This document shows positions 5,158-21,968 of a stretch of DNA of 33,688 nt, in pieces. Numbering within the stretch: the first letter of the stretch is position 1; the number at the start of each line of letters is the position of its first letter. The notes beneath the pieces are model-generated. The model had not been told where the DNA came from. It searched no databases and saw only the letters and a list, made by a program, of their open reading frames with translations. A program made the position numbers and the translations under genes. The DNA is from a virus: positions 1-33,688 of IMG/VR virus record IMGVR_UViG_3300049048_000040; one strand, 5' to 3'.

Positions 5158-5543
5158 GCGGCCACCGCCTCGAGCAGGTGGCCGTACTTGCGCTGCATGC
5201 GCTGACGCCAGGCCGCGGTGTCGACCGCCTCGACCCAATCGTGGATCGGGAGGAGGTCGTAAAGGCTCCACCAGTCACGCGCGGCGTCGGGGTTGTACTG
5301 CCTGTTGTGCATCGGGCGCAGGTTGTGGATCACCTTGCGCTCCTGCCGGCGACCGTCCTCGTAGGAGTACGGCCCGTCGTACGTGACCTTGTCCTCGCCC
5401 GGGACGACGAGTCCGGTGTTGATGTGCTGGCTCATCCGATGAACCGGGTTGCACGTGAGGCCGACGTACATCGGCATGCCCTCGGCGTCGAAGATCAGGT
5501 AGACCCAGTGGGGGCGCTCCTGTACCGGAACCCATGCGCCCAT
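5154..5543 (-). CDS. GIY-YIG nuclease-domain protein
   Basis: 129 residues; the ATG at 5543 overlaps the excisionase stop by one base (TGATG). The two family signature strands appear as VYL (residues 14-16) and YVG (26-28), spaced about 10 residues apart. They are followed by Arg36 in NPVHRMSQH, a Glu at 68 (RRQERKVI) and Asn80 in PMHNRQYN, matching the order of catalytic positions in the GIY-YIG fold. The domain fills most of the protein and there is no clear separate DNA-binding module, so it resembles free-standing single-domain members rather than a large homing endonuclease. Its place as second gene after the excisionase suggests an early DNA-processing role. The target is unknown. Confidence 0.75.
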   Translation of the reverse strand: MGAWVPVQERPHWVYLIFDAEGMPMYVGLTCNPVHRMSQHINTGLVVPGEDKVTYDGPYSYEDGRRQERKVIHNLRPMHNRQYNPDAARDWWSLYDLLPIHDWVEAVDTAAWRQRMQRKYGHLLEAVAA

Positions 5544-5794
5544 CAGGCTGCCCGCCGCTTCCCACGCGACCGCGAACGGCTCGTGCGACCGACCGGCGCG
5601 GCTGGGATCGTGTTGCGGTTTAGGTAGTCGTCCACGGCGGCGCGCCTGTACCTGAACTGGCCGCCCACCTTCACGGCTTCGATCTCCTGAGCGCGGCGGA
5701 GCCGGTCGACCGTCCAGCGGGACACGCCCAGCTCGGACGCCACCTCGTCGGGCTCGAGCAGGTCTCCGCCTGCGCCCGGTGTCTGCGTCGTCAT
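5543..5794 (-). CDS. Excisionase-like / MerR-type HTH DNA-binding protein
   Basis: 83 residues from the ATG at 5794; the frame extends upstream through the operator region but that is non-coding. Residues 12-60 (LLEPDEVASELGVSRWTVDRLRRAQEIEAVKVGGQFRYRRAAVDDYLNRN) match the helix-turn-helix 17/excisionase pattern: an LxxxEVAxxLGVSxxTVxRLxR helix pair, then a wing with FRYRR and a helix VDDYL. A basic tail (RTSRSRSRGKRRA) follows. As first gene of the leftward operon, next to repressor and integrase, it is most likely the recombination directionality factor. A Cro-like or activator role is possible. Confidence 0.75.
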   Translation of the reverse strand: MTTQTPGAGGDLLEPDEVASELGVSRWTVDRLRRAQEIEAVKVGGQFRYRRAAVDDYLNRNTIPAAPVGRTSRSRSRGKRRAA

Positions 5795-5850
5795 GTCCCC
5801 AACGTGGCAGGACGTTGGTACCTGTGTCAAGACCTTGGTACCTACAAACT
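5795..5850 (-). promoter_or_regulatory. Early leftward promoter with two 13-bp operator-like repeats
   Basis: Two direct copies of GACsTTGGTACCT lie at 5811-5823 and 5831-5843, 20 bases apart, so on the same face of the helix. Read leftward, a perfect TTGACA -35 hexamer (complement of 5825-5830) sits between them. A -10 at the usual 17-base spacing (5802-5807) is poor, and transcription from it would begin at or near the ATG at 5794, so the message may be leaderless. A repressor bound to these sites would block the promoter. Confidence 0.6.
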
Positions 5851-5880
5851 GGCCCGTGTCCCCGAACGGGTGCTTGATCC

Positions 5881-5908
5881 TTGCTAGTTGTATCGGTTCG
5901 GCTAGCAA
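5881..5908 (+). promoter_or_regulatory. Inverted repeat upstream of the repressor gene
   Basis: TTGCTAG (5881-5887) and CTAGCAA (5902-5908) are perfect complements around a 14-base spacer. The left arm resembles a -35 (TTGCTA) and the right arm a weak -10 (TAGCAA) at 16-base spacing, reading towards the repressor at 5963. It could be the repressor promoter, a second regulator's operator, or both. Confidence 0.4.
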
Positions 5909-5962
5909 CTACTCCTCGTGGTCACCAACACTGAGCAGCCGATCGACCGAAGGACCCCACAC

Positions 5963-6355
5963 GTGGCAAAGACACAGACGAGGAACAAGGTGCCCGCGAC
6001 ACCTGACAACGTGTTCGGCAAGACGCTCCAGGAGTGCCGCAAAGCAAGCGGCATGACCAACGCAGAGTCCTTGGCTGCGGCGCTCGGGGTCAGCGCCAGC
6101 AGCGTCAAGAACTGGGAGCAGGGGAGCCACCTACCCGAGGGTGAGTCAGCGTGGAAGCTGCATCTCTTGTTCGGGCCGTCGATCTTCCGTTCGCTCATGC
6201 CGCACGTGGCGCTGCCTGCCGGCGTGAAGATCGCGATCGAGCAACCCGAGGGCGCGGGTGACGCGTACGTCATCAGCCGCAAGGGGTCGAAGGTGGAGCG
6301 GCTGTCCAGGGCCGCGCAGCTCGCGGCGGAGATAGCAGCAGAGCCGGACGTGTGA
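5963..6355 (+). CDS. Cro/C1-type HTH repressor (likely immunity repressor)
   Basis: 130 residues from the GTG at 5963, chosen because GAAGGAC lies eight bases upstream; an in-frame GTG at 5918 would add 15 residues and lacks such a site. Residues 18-58 (FGKTLQECRKASGMTNAESLAAALGVSASSVKNWEQGSHLP) form a helix-turn-helix of the Cro/C1 family. The remaining 70 residues show no S24 protease or LexA-like Ser/Lys pattern that I can see, so induction by RecA-stimulated autocleavage is not evident. It is divergent from the early operon and next to the integrase, the classic immunity position. Likely binds the repeated GACsTTGGT sites. Confidence 0.75.
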   Translation: MAKTQTRNKVPATPDNVFGKTLQECRKASGMTNAESLAAALGVSASSVKNWEQGSHLPEGESAWKLHLLFGPSIFRSLMPHVALPAGVKIAIEQPEGAGDAYVISRKGSKVERLSRAAQLAAEIAAEPDV

Positions 6356-6360
6356 CCCGG

Positions 6361-6374
6361 GACCTTGGTCCTAG
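6361..6374. promoter_or_regulatory. Third operator-like site (GACCTTGGTCCTAG)
   Basis: This sequence begins six bases after the repressor stop codon and shares GACCTTGGT with the pair in the early promoter. With the preceding base it contains GGACC-TT-GGTCC, itself a perfect inverted repeat. It lies upstream of the small rightward gene at 6513 and may control it or stop read-through. Confidence 0.45.
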
Positions 6375-6512
6375 TCCGTTCGGACCAGGTGCTTAACACG
6401 GACGGTGTATCTGCCGGAACAGGATGTGATCTGTCGACCCCTGCGCGTACGGTCTCCGAACACACCGACCGCCAGTGGGGCAAGGTCGGACGTGACTAGC
6501 GTGGGGGACCGC

Positions 6513-6698
6513 GTGTCAGACCTCGAGATCCGTCTCAGTAGCAAGATCGACCCTGACGACCTGCTGGTTGTCAACCGCCCGAGCGGGCGAGTCGTGGCGG
6601 TGGTGTCGCCGCGGGCGACGCCGGAACAGGTGTCAGACCTGCTCCAGCTCGCCGGGCTCAGCCGACCCGACGTCGGCCGCTGCGATCTCACCGCGTGA
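6513..6698 (+). CDS. Small hypothetical protein convergent with integrase (61 aa)
   Basis: GTG start at 6513 preceded by GGGGGA; upstream in-frame starts (for example 6405) lack a comparable site. The sequence reads MSDLEIRLSSKIDPDDLLVVNRPSGRVVAVVSPRATPEQVSDLLQLAGLSRPDVGRCDLTA, a plausible alpha/beta mini-domain. Its last 66 bases overlap the end of the integrase gene on the other strand, which is unusual and lowers confidence. If real it is co-directional with the repressor and could be expressed in lysogens. No family recognised. Confidence 0.45.
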   Translation: MSDLEIRLSSKIDPDDLLVVNRPSGRVVAVVSPRATPEQVSDLLQLAGLSRPDVGRCDLTA

Positions 6699-7955
6699 CA
6701 CGGTGCGGTGGACGTCCCGCATCGACGCGGTGACGGCGGCCACCATCCTCTGCCGGCGCGACACGACGAGGTGCGCGTAGGTGCTGTAGGTGATCTGCAC
6801 CGTCTCGTGGCCTAGTCGCTCGGACACGTCCTCGATGGACGCGCCGCCTGCAAGCATCCACGAGGCGTGCAGGTGTCGCAGGTCGTGGGGTGTGCAGTCG
6901 CGGACGCCCGCTCTCTTGCGTGCGGGGTGCCAGACGTCCTCGCGGAACGGGTTGTCACGCACGGGACCACCGCGGGGTGCGCGGAACACGTGGGTCCCGG
7001 GGGAGACGTCCCACCCGTCCGGGCGCTTCTCCTTGTAGGTGTCGCGCAGGGCGGTGAGGGTCGCCACGTCGGCGGCACTGAGGTCGATGGTGCGGACGGA
7101 CCGCGGCGTCTTGGGTGTCTCGAGACGCCACCGTTGCTTGCCTTCGGGCTGGTTCGTTCCGGCGTCGTGGTACCCCTTGGACACCGTGAGCAGCGCCTGG
7201 GGGAGGCGGACATCCTGCCAGCGGAGAGCAGTGGCCTCATTGATGCGGAGCCCTGTCGCGGCGAGCGTCTCGACGAACGGCCGCCACCACTCGGGCAGCG
7301 CTTCGAGTAGGGCGTTGAACTCGTCGTTGGTCAGCGGCTCGACGGGTGTCCGGTACGCCTTGGGCAGCTTGACGTTGTCGCACGGGCTAGCCGGGATGAG
7401 GCCACGCTTGACGCAGTCGGACATGAGCTGAGAGAGCAGGGTGAACTCGTTGCGCACCGTCTTGGGCGCGATGGTCACCACGGGAGCGTCGTCTGCCTTG
7501 CCGCGCCTGTAGGTCTGCGAGGAGCGCGCCTGCACCCAGCGGGAGACGTCGTCGCGGGTGACGCTCGACAGCGGGTAGGCGGCGAACTTCTCCAGCCATG
7601 AGCCCTCGACAGCGACACGGCGCCGGTACTTGGACAGCGTGCCGTCCTTGGGGGAGTTGTGGTGCGCGAGGTAGTGCTCCCACGCCTCAGCGACGGTGTG
7701 CAGCCCGCCCCGGTCGCCGGCGCGCTCCCTCTCCTCCCAGACCCGTAGCGCCTCCTCGACTCCGGCGATGCGTGCGTGACGGGCGAACTGGCACGCCTCG
7801 CGCTGGTCGGGGAAGGTCGCGGACGTCTGCCCGCCCGGTCGCAGGGGTCGCCACTGTGCCCGGTAGGAGGTGCCGGATTCGGACGTGCGGCTGTAGACGT
7901 TGACGGCGGTCCCGGTGGGGGAGACGGGGGGTGCGTTCCAGGCGACGGCTGGCAT
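6633..7955 (-). CDS. int: Tyrosine-family site-specific integrase
   Basis: 440 residues, full length for an actinophage integrase. The N-terminus contains an arm-type DNA-binding domain (SYRAQWRPLRPGGQTSATFPDQREACQFA, residues 30-58), then a core-binding helical domain (about 85-195) and the catalytic domain. The active-site set is visible: R237 in AATGLRINEA, K282 in TPKTPRSVR, H357 and R360 in PHDLRHLH, H383 in RLGHETV and the nucleophile Y393 in STYAHL. It would integrate the phage at the attP-like tRNA mimic lying 360 bp upstream at 8319-8352, and excise it with help from the excisionase-like protein. Coupled to a small upstream gene ending 3 bp before its ATG. Confidence 0.95.
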   Translation of the reverse strand: MPAVAWNAPPVSPTGTAVNVYSRTSESGTSYRAQWRPLRPGGQTSATFPDQREACQFARHARIAGVEEALRVWEERERAGDRGGLHTVAEAWEHYLAHHNSPKDGTLSKYRRRVAVEGSWLEKFAAYPLSSVTRDDVSRWVQARSSQTYRRGKADDAPVVTIAPKTVRNEFTLLSQLMSDCVKRGLIPASPCDNVKLPKAYRTPVEPLTNDEFNALLEALPEWWRPFVETLAATGLRINEATALRWQDVRLPQALLTVSKGYHDAGTNQPEGKQRWRLETPKTPRSVRTIDLSAADVATLTALRDTYKEKRPDGWDVSPGTHVFRAPRGGPVRDNPFREDVWHPARKRAGVRDCTPHDLRHLHASWMLAGGASIEDVSERLGHETVQITYSTYAHLVVSRRQRMVAAVTASMRDVHRTVSRGEIAAADVGSAEPGELEQV

Positions 7956-7958
7956 GGG

Positions 7959-8165
7959 TCAGCCAGCCTCGCCGCAGGAGACGCACCGGACCCGCTTTCG
8001 GTGGCCGATCACATCGGCGGGAGACGTGCCGCGCCACACCCGACCCCAACCCGTGGGGAGCCCCGGGCGGTAGATCGGGCGGCGCTCCTCCGTGTGCCCA
8101 CAGGACAGGGTCAGCCGGTGGTAGTAGTGCGATGAGTTCCCTTCCATGAACAGGGAGGTGGACAT
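7959..8165 (-). CDS. Small putative zinc-finger protein upstream of integrase (68 aa)
   Basis: I start it at the ATG at 8165 (MSTSLFMEGNSSHYYHRLTLSCGHTEERRP); the frame is open back to 8345 but that part would run through the att region. Cys and His residues are spaced as LSCGHTEE and, near the end, HRKRVRCVSCGEAG, consistent with one zinc-binding knuckle pair. Such short CGH...CxxC proteins occur widely in actinobacterial phages with unknown function. It ends three bases before the integrase start, so the two are probably co-transcribed. Confidence 0.55.
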   Translation of the reverse strand: MSTSLFMEGNSSHYYHRLTLSCGHTEERRPIYRPGLPTGWGRVWRGTSPADVIGHRKRVRCVSCGEAG

Positions 8166-8236
8166 CCTCAGCTCGGCCTTGACGACATCACGCAGGGGGT
8201 AGTCGGCCAGCCCGCCGCTCACTGTCGACCTGGCCC

Positions 8237-8276
8237 ATGTTGCCGCCAGGTGTTGCCATCGTCTGCCATGTTTGCC
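8237..8276. promoter_or_regulatory. Cluster of integrase arm-type-like repeats (left arm)
   Basis: ATGTTGCC (8237-8244), GTGTTGCC (8250-8257) and ATGTTTGCC (8268-8276) are near-identical direct repeats upstream of the tRNA-like core. GTGTTGCC recurs on the other side of the core at 8446-8453. Repeats of one short sequence on both sides of a crossover site are what arm-type binding sites of tyrosine integrases look like. Confidence 0.5.
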
Positions 8277-8318
8277 TCCGACCGGGTAACCGTGCTGGTC
8301 AGAGCAGTATAGCGGCTG

Positions 8319-8352
8319 TGTCCGAGGGGGGACTTGAACCCTCACCGGATAT
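8319..8352 (-). other. Candidate attP core: mimic of a tRNA 3' half
   Basis: Read leftward, 8352 to 8319 contains GAGGGTTCAAGTCCCCC, a T-arm with the standard seven-base loop TTCAAGT, followed by CTCGGACAC resembling the 3' acceptor strand. The T-stem has one A-C mismatch. A complete tRNA cannot be folded: no matching 5' acceptor or anticodon arm precedes it. Phages integrating into tRNA genes carry exactly such 3' fragments to restore the gene. The sequence pattern is closest to actinobacterial class II tRNAs such as tRNA-Leu, by memory only. The integrase gene lies immediately to the left. Confidence 0.65.
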
Positions 8353-8421
8353 CAGGAAGTTGGTCCTCTGACCTGCATCTGCGCTGGTCAGTCTCGCGCG
8401 CCCCCTAGCCATGAGTGGCAA

Positions 8422-8434
8422 GACGTTGGTAGTG
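8422..8434. promoter_or_regulatory. Fourth operator-like site (GACGTTGGTAGTG)
   Basis: It shares GACGTTGGTA with the early promoter copy at 5811. It sits 66 bases before the lipoprotein ATG, in the likely promoter zone of the rightward accessory operon, so the immunity repressor might also control that operon. Confidence 0.4.
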
Positions 8435-8445
8435 TCCCAGCATTG

Positions 8446-8464
8446 GTGTTGCCTATGGCAACAC
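8446..8464. repeat. Perfect 8-3-8 inverted repeat, arm site or operator
   Basis: GTGTTGCC-TAT-GGCAACAC is a perfect palindrome with a three-base centre. Its left arm equals the repeat at 8250-8257 across the att core, so it may be a paired arm-type integrase site; it also lies 36 bases before the lipoprotein ATG and could be an operator. Confidence 0.5.
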
Positions 8465-8499
8465 TCCAGACCACTCCAGAGGCCGCCAGGAGGCACCCG

Positions 8500-8919
8500 A
8501 TGACCCGCACCAAGACCCTCGCCGCAGCCGGAGCTCTCGCCCTCGGCGCGACCCTCCTCGCGGGGTGCTCGAGCCAGACCGCCGCCGACGTTGCGGAGTA
8601 CAACAGCGAGGTGGCGGCCGAGAACTTCGAGCAGCCGGTCCGCATCGTCGGCATCAACGGCATCACGGACGAGATCCTGTTCTCCGTCGAGGGGTACTGC
8701 TCCTACACGCACACCGGCGCAGTGCTGAAGGTGACCTGCCTGGAGGACCGAGAGACGGGCGAGACGACCCGGACCGTCCTCGGCCTGTCGGACAACGTGA
8801 CGTTCGTCCGGACGCAGATGGAGGCGACGGAGACGGACCTGTTCCGCTCGCGCGTGATCTTCCGACCGGAGACGATCATCCCTGACTTCGACCTGTCGAC
8901 GTCGGGCGGTGACCTCTGA
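8500..8919 (+). CDS. Phage lipoprotein (beta-sandwich type), possible exclusion or conversion factor
   Basis: 139 residues from the ATG at 8500, with AGGAGG at the right distance (8488-8493). A signal peptide (MTRTKTLAAAGALALGATLLAGC) ends in a lipobox LLAGC with Cys23, so the protein should be lipid-anchored outside the membrane. The mature part (AEYNSEVAAENFEQPVRIVGINGITDEILFSVEGYCSYTHTG...LKVTCLED...YLGLSDN-like) has two Cys and alternating beta strands, resembling the beta-sandwich lipoproteins many temperate actinophages carry near the integrase. Those are suspected of superinfection exclusion, but here that is inference. It heads a rightward operon. Confidence 0.75.
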   Translation: MTRTKTLAAAGALALGATLLAGCSSQTAADVAEYNSEVAAENFEQPVRIVGINGITDEILFSVEGYCSYTHTGAVLKVTCLEDRETGETTRTVLGLSDNVTFVRTQMEATETDLFRSRVIFRPETIIPDFDLSTSGGDL

Positions 8920-19872: not shown

Positions 19873-21036
19873 TCAGAGTCTCGCCAAGCCGGACGCGATG
19901 CGCCGGGCCACGTCCGCCTGCCGTTGCACAGACCACTCACCGATCGACGGCGACCACCGGGGGGCCGCACCGTCGCTGTCACTGATCGCCAGCCGCTCCA
20001 GGCGGTCCGTCACCGACTGGCCGTCCTCCGACACCGTCACCAGGTCACCCAGCGCGTAGTCGACGCCGTAACGCCACTGCACGGACTCGGTCGGCTCGAC
20101 CTGGATGCCGTTCTGCGACGCGCCCTCCAGCAGCAGCTCGTCGGCCGACTCCTTGAGGTCCGTGCCGTCCTCGACGTTGGTCTGCGCGGAGAACCGTTCG
20201 CGCCGGAAACCGAAACCACCCGTTGGGGCCGTCGCCGTCGAGCGGACGAAGTTGCGCGTCGTCAACTCGTCGCGGCCACCAGCGATGACATCTGTCGCCT
20301 CAGCAGCCGTCCACGTCCACGCTGAACCGACCAGCGTGCCCGCCTCCACCGACCAGACCAGGCCAGGGCGAGCGACAGGCACGGACGGCTCCACGAGGAG
20401 TTCCCCGCGCCCGCCCTGCACCAGCCGGACACCGACACCGCCCTTGACGCTCACCGACCGGGCGACGTCGAGCAGGCTGTGGAAGCGCGACTTGTACGTG
20501 ATCGTGCTGCCGCGACCCAGGGATGCCGGTACGACCAGTTCCGCGATCTCACGGCGAGCCAGCGCACCCGAGCCGACGTTGGCCGTGATGTAACCGAGCA
20601 GGACCGTCTCAGCCGCACCCGTGCGCGTGTCGTAGGCCGTGCCGATCGTCGCCGCCGTCGTCGAGACATCCGTGGCCGGCGTCATGAAGCCCAGGTAGCC
20701 GGCGAGGATGCCCGTGTCCGTCATGCCGTAGCACGTCACCGAGTCGCGGGCGTAACCGGACGGGGCGCCTGACGTGCGAGTCGCGGTCAGGACCGGGCCG
20801 GACCACACGACCTCGGGGCTGCCCTCCTCGCGGACGACGACACCCCAGCGCGCCAGATCCTCACCAGCCAGCCGCGACGCCGTCAGAGCCCGCGCCGCGT
20901 CCGTGTGCTTCGGCCAGATCGCCTGCCACTGACCCGCGCCCACGTACTCCAGCAGGCCGTACATCGACGAGTAGCCCGAACCGTCCTCGACCTCGACGAA
21001 GTCCTTACGCAGCGACACCGTCAGGCGACGGCTCAC
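19873..21036 (-). CDS. Gp37-like minor tail protein (ReqiPepy6 Gp37-like family)
   Basis: 387 residues from the GTG at 21036, which overlaps the preceding TGA; an extra nine codons to 21063 are shadow. The N-terminal region (LTVSLRKDFVEVEDGSGYSSMYGLLEYVGAGQWQAIWPKHTDAARAL) and central parts (WSGPVLTATRTSG..., SVTCYGMTD..., YKSRFHSLLDVARSVSVKGGVGVRLVQGGRGELLVEP) match the layout of siphovirus Gp37-like minor tail proteins that form the tail hub. The end has SIGEWSVQRQADVARRIASGL. It probably assembles with the distal tail protein encoded just upstream to form the baseplate ring. Confidence 0.75.
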   Translation of the reverse strand: MSRRLTVSLRKDFVEVEDGSGYSSMYGLLEYVGAGQWQAIWPKHTDAARALTASRLAGEDLARWGVVVREEGSPEVVWSGPVLTATRTSGAPSGYARDSVTCYGMTDTGILAGYLGFMTPATDVSTTAATIGTAYDTRTGAAETVLLGYITANVGSGALARREIAELVVPASLGRGSTITYKSRFHSLLDVARSVSVKGGVGVRLVQGGRGELLVEPSVPVARPGLVWSVEAGTLVGSAWTWTAAEATDVIAGGRDELTTRNFVRSTATAPTGGFGFRRERFSAQTNVEDGTDLKESADELLLEGASQNGIQVEPTESVQWRYGVDYALGDLVTVSEDGQSVTDRLERLAISDSDGAAPRWSPSIGEWSVQRQADVARRIASGLARL

Positions 21037-21968
21037 AGCAGCACCTCGAACCGGGGCGACCACGCGACCGTGACCGTCGTCGTCGCATCCGCGCCGACAG
21101 CCTCCACCAGCACCGACTCAGACTCCGTGCGCAGACGGAACAGCTCAGAGCCGGGGGCGACGTACTGCCACCAGTTGCCGTCCACGCTGTGCGACACGCG
21201 GCCCGTCTCGCGCGGGTCCGTGAGCACCGTCAACGTCTCACCCGTCAGCAGCGGCTCATCCACGGACCACGTCACACCGTCGCCGCGCGTGATCGTCAGG
21301 CTGGTGAACGGGCCGGTGATCGTCCACGTGGGCCACGTGTCCAGGTCGCCGCCCACCTCCAGCGGGTTCGCCTCACCCAGCACCGACGACTCAGCCAGAG
21401 ACAGCGGCAGGATCGGGAAGAACGAACCACCAGCGCCACCGACGCTCCACGTGCGGGAACGCTGGTCGCCGGACCACCAGGGGTCTAGTGCGCGCAGACG
21501 CAGGGGGACCGTCGTGTACTTCGCCACCCACGACGAGTTCCACCACGAGTCACCCTCAGCCTGGTACCGCATCACGGGCAGGGACAGCGTCGCGCCACTC
21601 TCGAGCGACCCGACGAGCTGCACGTCCTCGGCGTACGGCGACAGGACGCGCCGCAGGTCCGCCAGGGCAGCAGCGACCGCCGACGTGGACGACGAGCGCA
21701 CCAGCAGGGGCAGCAGCAGGTCCACCGAGCCGACGATGCGCCGCTCCGACCGCAGCACGGCACCGTCGAACGACGGGGACGTGGCGAGGTCTACGTCGAA
21801 CGGGGCACCCGCCAGACCGGACGGACCACGCAGCAGGTCGAACGGGTCCGCCAGCAGGTCGACGGAGCCGTTGGACGACGTGACCTTGAGCGACCGGACG
21901 GCCGACAGGACCGGGGCGGCAGCGCCGGAAGCCGTCGAGCCGCCCGCACCCAGGATGACAGCGGTCAT
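21033..21968 (-). CDS. Distal tail-type minor tail protein
   Basis: 311 residues from the ATG at 21968, which overlaps the tape measure TGA (ATGA). The first 110 residues (VDLLADPFDLLRGPSGLAGAPFDVDLATSPSFDGAVLRSERRIVGSVDLLLPLLV) followed by helical ALADLRRVLSP and a beta domain correspond to siphovirus distal tail proteins (Dit). Downstream are WNSSWVAKYTTVPLRLRALDPWWSG and WPTWTITGPFTSLTITRG. These proteins cap the tail tube below the tape measure. Order tape measure, Dit, Gp37-like is standard. Confidence 0.8.
   Translation of the reverse strand: MTAVILGAGGSTASGAAAPVLSAVRSLKVTSSNGSVDLLADPFDLLRGPSGLAGAPFDVDLATSPSFDGAVLRSERRIVGSVDLLLPLLVRSSSTSAVAAALADLRRVLSPYAEDVQLVGSLESGATLSLPVMRYQAEGDSWWNSSWVAKYTTVPLRLRALDPWWSGDQRSRTWSVGGAGGSFFPILPLSLAESSVLGEANPLEVGGDLDTWPTWTITGPFTSLTITRGDGVTWSVDEPLLTGETLTVLTDPRETGRVSHSVDGNWWQYVAPGSELFRLRTESESVLVEAVGADATTTVTVAWSPRFEVLL

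Follow-up and report, generated by a model that had tools for sequence, protein, structure and literature searches.

An asymmetric repeat shared by a putative early promoter region and the probable attP of a phage may be the target of a dual-purpose excisionase

The Apl protein of phage 186 recognizes similar sites, arranged as direct repeats, in att and in the stretch between the early promoters; its gene, like those of other RDFs of P2-like phages, is the first early lytic gene (PMC7498355). XisF4 of Pf4 is an excisionase that is also a transcription regulator, and the genes for XisF4 and Pf4r are divergent (PMC7379572). The Xis sites of phage lambda lie between the core and the P-arm integrase sites (PMC4880445), and BldC binds direct repeats as asymmetric head-to-tail oligomers (PMC5859096). 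Here we describe a virus record in which the same sequence element occurs at a putative early promoter and in a probable attachment site. We lean, by a narrow balance of probability, toward the reading that this element is recognized by the excisionase-family protein encoded at 5543-5794 and serves two roles, control of the early promoter and excision, in the manner of 186 Apl and P2 Cox. This proposal draws on within-genome statistics, on the anatomy of the region and on knowledge of the protein families concerned.

The window, by which we mean the whole stretch of DNA that was analysed, comprises 33,688 bases of one virus record. A DNA-level search of the phage collection with its first 25,000 bases returned no match, and the tRNA-Leu sequence of the att core, together with distant homologues, points to an actinobacterial host. 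Leftward from a tandem pair of the element at 5804-5843 lie the excisionase-family gene (5543-5794, minus strand), then a GIY-YIG gene and genes for ExoVIII-like and RecT-like proteins; their shared orientation suggests an early lytic operon, of which 5543-5794 would be the first gene. Elsewhere in the window are a gene on the plus strand for an HTH_3 regulator, probably the immunity repressor (5963-6355), a tyrosine integrase gene on the minus strand (6633-7955; Phage_integrase PF00589, phrog_1), a rightward operon whose first gene is 8500-8919, and, throughout the right half, structural genes that are read leftward.

A first-pass annotation had listed the 9-mer GACSTTGGT at 5811, 5831, 6361 and 8422, the 13-mer GACSTTGGTACCT at 5811 and 5831, and a weaker relative, AAGTTGGTCC, starting at 8357; a string check found every one of these in its place. 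The exact 9-mer is present in 5 copies in the window versus 0.42 expected, a count that none of 100 shuffles reached, and the fifth copy, unlisted in that annotation, is at 20173 within a minor tail gene (19873-21063). The 13-mer showed no enrichment in the window when three mismatches were allowed. A repeat finder detected a longer unit, a 20-nt head-to-tail tandem consisting of 5804-5823 (GTGGCAGGACGTTGGTACCT) and 5824-5843 (GTGTCAAGACCTTGGTACCT), both on the plus strand and identical at 17 of 20 positions, with a third copy at 8415-8434. This is the best period-20 tandem in the window. Tandems with periods of 21 and 24 occur at 1770 and 25338, each 18/20 identical, and are probably coding repeats.

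The conserved part of the unit is the 17-mer GTGKCARGACSTTGGTA, which is present in exactly three copies, all in one orientation, at 5804-5820, 5824-5840 and 8415-8431, the last reading GTGGCAAGACGTTGGTA on the plus strand. Its consensus was built from the tandem pair alone, and the third copy was then scored against it. The 8415-8431 copy matches this tandem-derived consensus at 17 of 17 positions. When the remainder of the window was shuffled 200 times, no shuffle matched as well; the best match per shuffle was 13 in 149 cases, 14 in 39, 12 in 11 and 15 in a single one. On the same full motif, the remaining candidates score in the chance range: 12/17 for 6354-6370, 10/17 at 20166 and 13/17 for 8349-8365, the proposed weaker relative, whose score was reached by shuffled sequence and which, eight bases from the att core, is suggestive by position only. 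The firm sites thus number three, fewer than the four listed or the five exact 9-mers, because the matches at 6361, 8357 and 20173 are within the chance range when the full motif is considered. The 9-mers at 5811, 5831 and 8422 are parts of firm copies, whereas the fourth listed site, at 6361, is a 9-mer only; across the whole window the 17-mer is confined to three intergenic copies, but the shorter 9-mer recurs in the tail gene. The two exact 9-mers outside the firm copies, set against 0.42 expected, correspond to a Poisson estimate of about 0.07, which is weak evidence.

These numbers bear on whether the copies have a common binder at all. Chance and drift could in principle account for them, through a local tandem duplication together with an unrelated, similar sequence in attP and no common binder. 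Such an account gains from the tandems of equal or higher identity at 1770 and 25338 and from a motif without known relatives, but it has to accommodate a third copy that is 2.6 kb away and still exceeds all 200 shuffles, as well as three firm copies that are all intergenic, two of them at the early promoter region and one in attP. We judge it quite improbable as a whole, and a chance origin of the 8415 copy in particular unlikely.

Family assignments indicate which proteins might bind the element. The 5543-5794 product belongs to the excisionase/HTH_17 family, as shown by its scores against TIGR01764 'excisionase family' (42.7 bits; cut-off 28.8) and HTH_17 (46.9 bits; cut-off 27), and it also matches phrog_66, excisionase and transcriptional regulator. 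Its predicted structure is a winged helix, with a pLDDT of about 87 over residues 11-60, and the nearest folds are those of BldC, RacA, Pukovnik Xis and RdfS, although the Foldseek matches are weak (E 0.0066 for BldC, the best, and 0.07 for Pukovnik Xis). Against the BldC family profile it scored below the cut-off. The 5963-6355 protein matches HTH_3 above the cut-off (33.5 bits) as well as phrog transcriptional regulators and repressors, and its predicted structure is poor (mean pLDDT 55).

The tandem pair lies in front of the leftward gene 5543-5794. The TTGACA noted there in the first-pass annotation is on the minus strand (5830-5825), within copy 2, and resembles a -35 element; it is followed 18 bp later by a poor -10, CACGTT, six bases before the start codon. 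Read in this way, the sequence suggests a leftward early promoter at the tandem pair, the transcript of which would be leaderless for 5543-5794. A consensus promoter scan called no promoter, including at the tandem pair, and the sole terminator-like match of the same scan, at 8425-8441, was no more than shuffles yield.

An early promoter upstream of the first lytic gene is the classic location for a repressor's operator. The HTH_3 immunity repressor might accordingly own the motif as its operator, shutting the leftward early promoter and acting at 8415 on the lipoprotein operon or the integrase complex. The tandem pair indeed has this location, overlapping the early promoter region ahead of the first lytic gene; the repressor's family match is above the cut-off; and the 8415 copy, for its part, precedes the rightward operon starting at 8500. 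HTH_3 dimers, however, usually bind inverted repeats, and the conserved 17-mer lacks symmetry and has copies that run head-to-tail, unlike the inverted repeats of XRE/CI-type operators. Furthermore, copy 3 is inside attP, and the site after the repressor gene, at 6361, is at chance level. A separate perfect inverted repeat, TTGCTAG-N14-CTAGCAA, lies at 5881-5908 upstream of the HTH_3 gene; it is present in a single copy and statistically weak, and is a possible alternative operator for this protein. On balance, we consider ownership of the motif by the HTH_3 protein a serious alternative, but the less likely one. Much less probable, in our estimate, is a version in which the immunity repressor binds the shared element at both places, the early promoter and attP, so that in the lysogen it silences the lytic genes and also keeps the integrase complex from assembling. 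The asymmetric, head-to-tail layout suits the adjacent excisionase-family protein better than the HTH_3 protein. The first-pass proposal of one regulator acting at several loci agrees with our results as far as the lytic promoter and a second, distant place are concerned, but its extension to the repressor's own locus rests on the chance-level site at 6361. A terminator at this position is likewise unsupported: the hairpin around 6361 has about the stability expected from shuffled sequence (z 0.04).

The surroundings of the third copy resemble an attachment site. The 26 bases at 8316-8341 are found in many actinobacterial genomes, where they form the 3' end of tRNA-Leu with anticodon GAG in all seven cases examined, and identity to almost all other carriers of the core ends at or just beyond 8341. 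It is thus strongly indicated that 8316-8341 is the attP core. The segment 8319-8341 recurs in 50 viral loci, and a distant tyrosine integrase is encoded by 12 of them (chromosome-end pieces counted); the tRNA-Leu(GAG) att site therefore looks widely used by actinophages, among them these 12 with highly diverged tyrosine integrases. The sequence GCTGGTCAG is present on both sides of the core, at 8294-8302 and 8383-8391.

Repeats of TGTTGCC on both sides of the core are probable arm-type sites of the integrase: they lie in the P' arm at 8238 and 8251 on the plus strand (8238-8257) and in the P arm at 8447 (plus) and 8457 (minus; 8447-8463). With one mismatch allowed, 5 matches fall within 8168-8500 versus 0.8 expected from the density in the window. 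Copy 3 of the motif is on the P arm; 73 bases separate it from the core, and the distal arm sites are 15 bases away. Between the core and these presumptive arm sites there is one firm direct-repeat copy (8415), with weak ones at 8349 and 8432. An annotated site before the lipoprotein operon is thus a real copy of the motif, but its reading as an operator of an accessory operon can be corrected, as the site falls within the probable attP, beyond the core but short of the distal integrase arm sites.

The motif and the arm sites are not fully independent, because one of the five TGTTGCC-like matches is the 8415 copy itself, read on the opposite strand. A further idea is that integrase recognizes the motif as one of its arm-type sites, or as a portion of such a site, and could act near the early promoter through the copies there. 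On the minus strand, 8415-8424 (GTCTTGCCAC) does resemble the arm-type sequence GTGTTGCCAT, but only half of the 17-mer is arm-like, the other half (STTGGTA) is not, and the early-promoter copies are less arm-like; we regard this idea as very improbable.

We therefore return to the excisionase-family protein as the preferred binder. It may bind the tandem at 5804-5843 head-to-tail at its own promoter, where, lying over the -35 region, it would restrict leftward transcription of the early genes. In attP, the same protein may occupy 8415-8431, with the tRNA-Leu core on one side and the distal integrase arm sites on the other, where it would introduce a bend and promote excision. All three activities, namely DNA binding, repression and excision, are ones that we infer for this protein. 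A comparison of the region upstream of the excisionase gene with att is in line with such a shared site: none of 200 shuffles reached the score seen in the window. When HTH_17-upstream regions and att were compared in the same way in further phages carrying an identical att core, none of 13 comparisons gave a comparable match (in the best case 7 of 200 shuffles reached the score), a crude control in that the HTH_17 genes of these phages need not all be excisionase genes. Two features of the sites count against a dual-purpose excisionase. Known excisionases have several sites in attP, but only a single firm copy is present here. In addition, the repeat period is 20 bp, not 10-11; a sub-ladder of KTGKYA at 11, 9 and 11 bp was defined after the fact.

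Searches for relatives covered several collections. The repressor, integrase and excisionase proteins had no relatives among viral contigs, and neither the repressor nor the excisionase had any among phage records, where the best of the integrase matches listed had about 34% identity. No excisionase relative was present in genome contigs, and a search of about 790 actinobacterial genomes with the integrase, at a threshold of E 1e-50, returned nothing. A terminase search identified two contigs at 60%, neither with a relative of the excisionase. Scanning viral contigs for the tandem motif gave one match, in an unrelated AT-rich contig, and a looser tandem pattern gave 57 matches without a homologue of the switch genes; both were set aside. 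An Rfam search found nothing. The 8500-8919 protein has a lipoprotein-like N-terminus and matches Phage_VG64 (PF25682) and phrog_478. The latter is labelled 'site-specific recombination directionality factor RDF', and relatives occur in 673 phage records, many of them annotated as RDF. We did not adopt this doubtful label for 8500-8919 because of its lipoprotein-like N-terminus and because the phage has a tyrosine integrase.

If the proposed role of the 5543-5794 protein is right, the phages that couple excision to the lysis-lysogeny switch gain an actinobacterial member whose excisionase is of the standard HTH_17 kind. Phages 186 and P2 are among the established examples of such coupling through one protein and shared sites, and the present analysis defines three concrete short target sequences for binding.

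Comparison with described systems places the locus among several of them. Cluster A mycobacteriophage stoperators are asymmetric 13-bp sites of the GGTGGMTGTCAAG type, many of which are spread across the genome; here there are three sites in 33.7 kb, with a different sequence. As with XisF4 and Pf4r, the genes for the excisionase and the repressor are divergent, although Pf4 is a filamentous phage. Streptomyces BldC is the best sequence and fold match to the 5543-5794 protein among solved structures, yet it is a host developmental regulator with AT-rich 9-bp repeats, whereas the motif here is GC-richer and longer. Pukovnik Xis and the L5-type actinophage excisionases, which work with tyrosine integrases, have the HTH_17 winged helix in common with this protein, including a weak fold match to 4J2N, and their sites are expected in an attP arm, where copy 3 probably lies, but the protein has no sequence relative in the phage collection, and our analysis retrieved no indication that these excisionases bind their early promoters as well. 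Relative to the core and the probable distal arm sites, copy 3 is placed much as lambda Xis sites are. Phage 186 has seven switch sites and five att sites, 10-11 bp apart, compared with two plus one here, in units of 17-20 nt and 20 bp apart, and Apl is a sequence outlier among RDFs whereas the protein here is a standard HTH_17 excisionase. Nevertheless, as with 186 Apl and P2 Cox, the candidate regulator is the product of the putative first early lytic gene, and its proposed direct-repeat sites are at the switch promoter region and in att.
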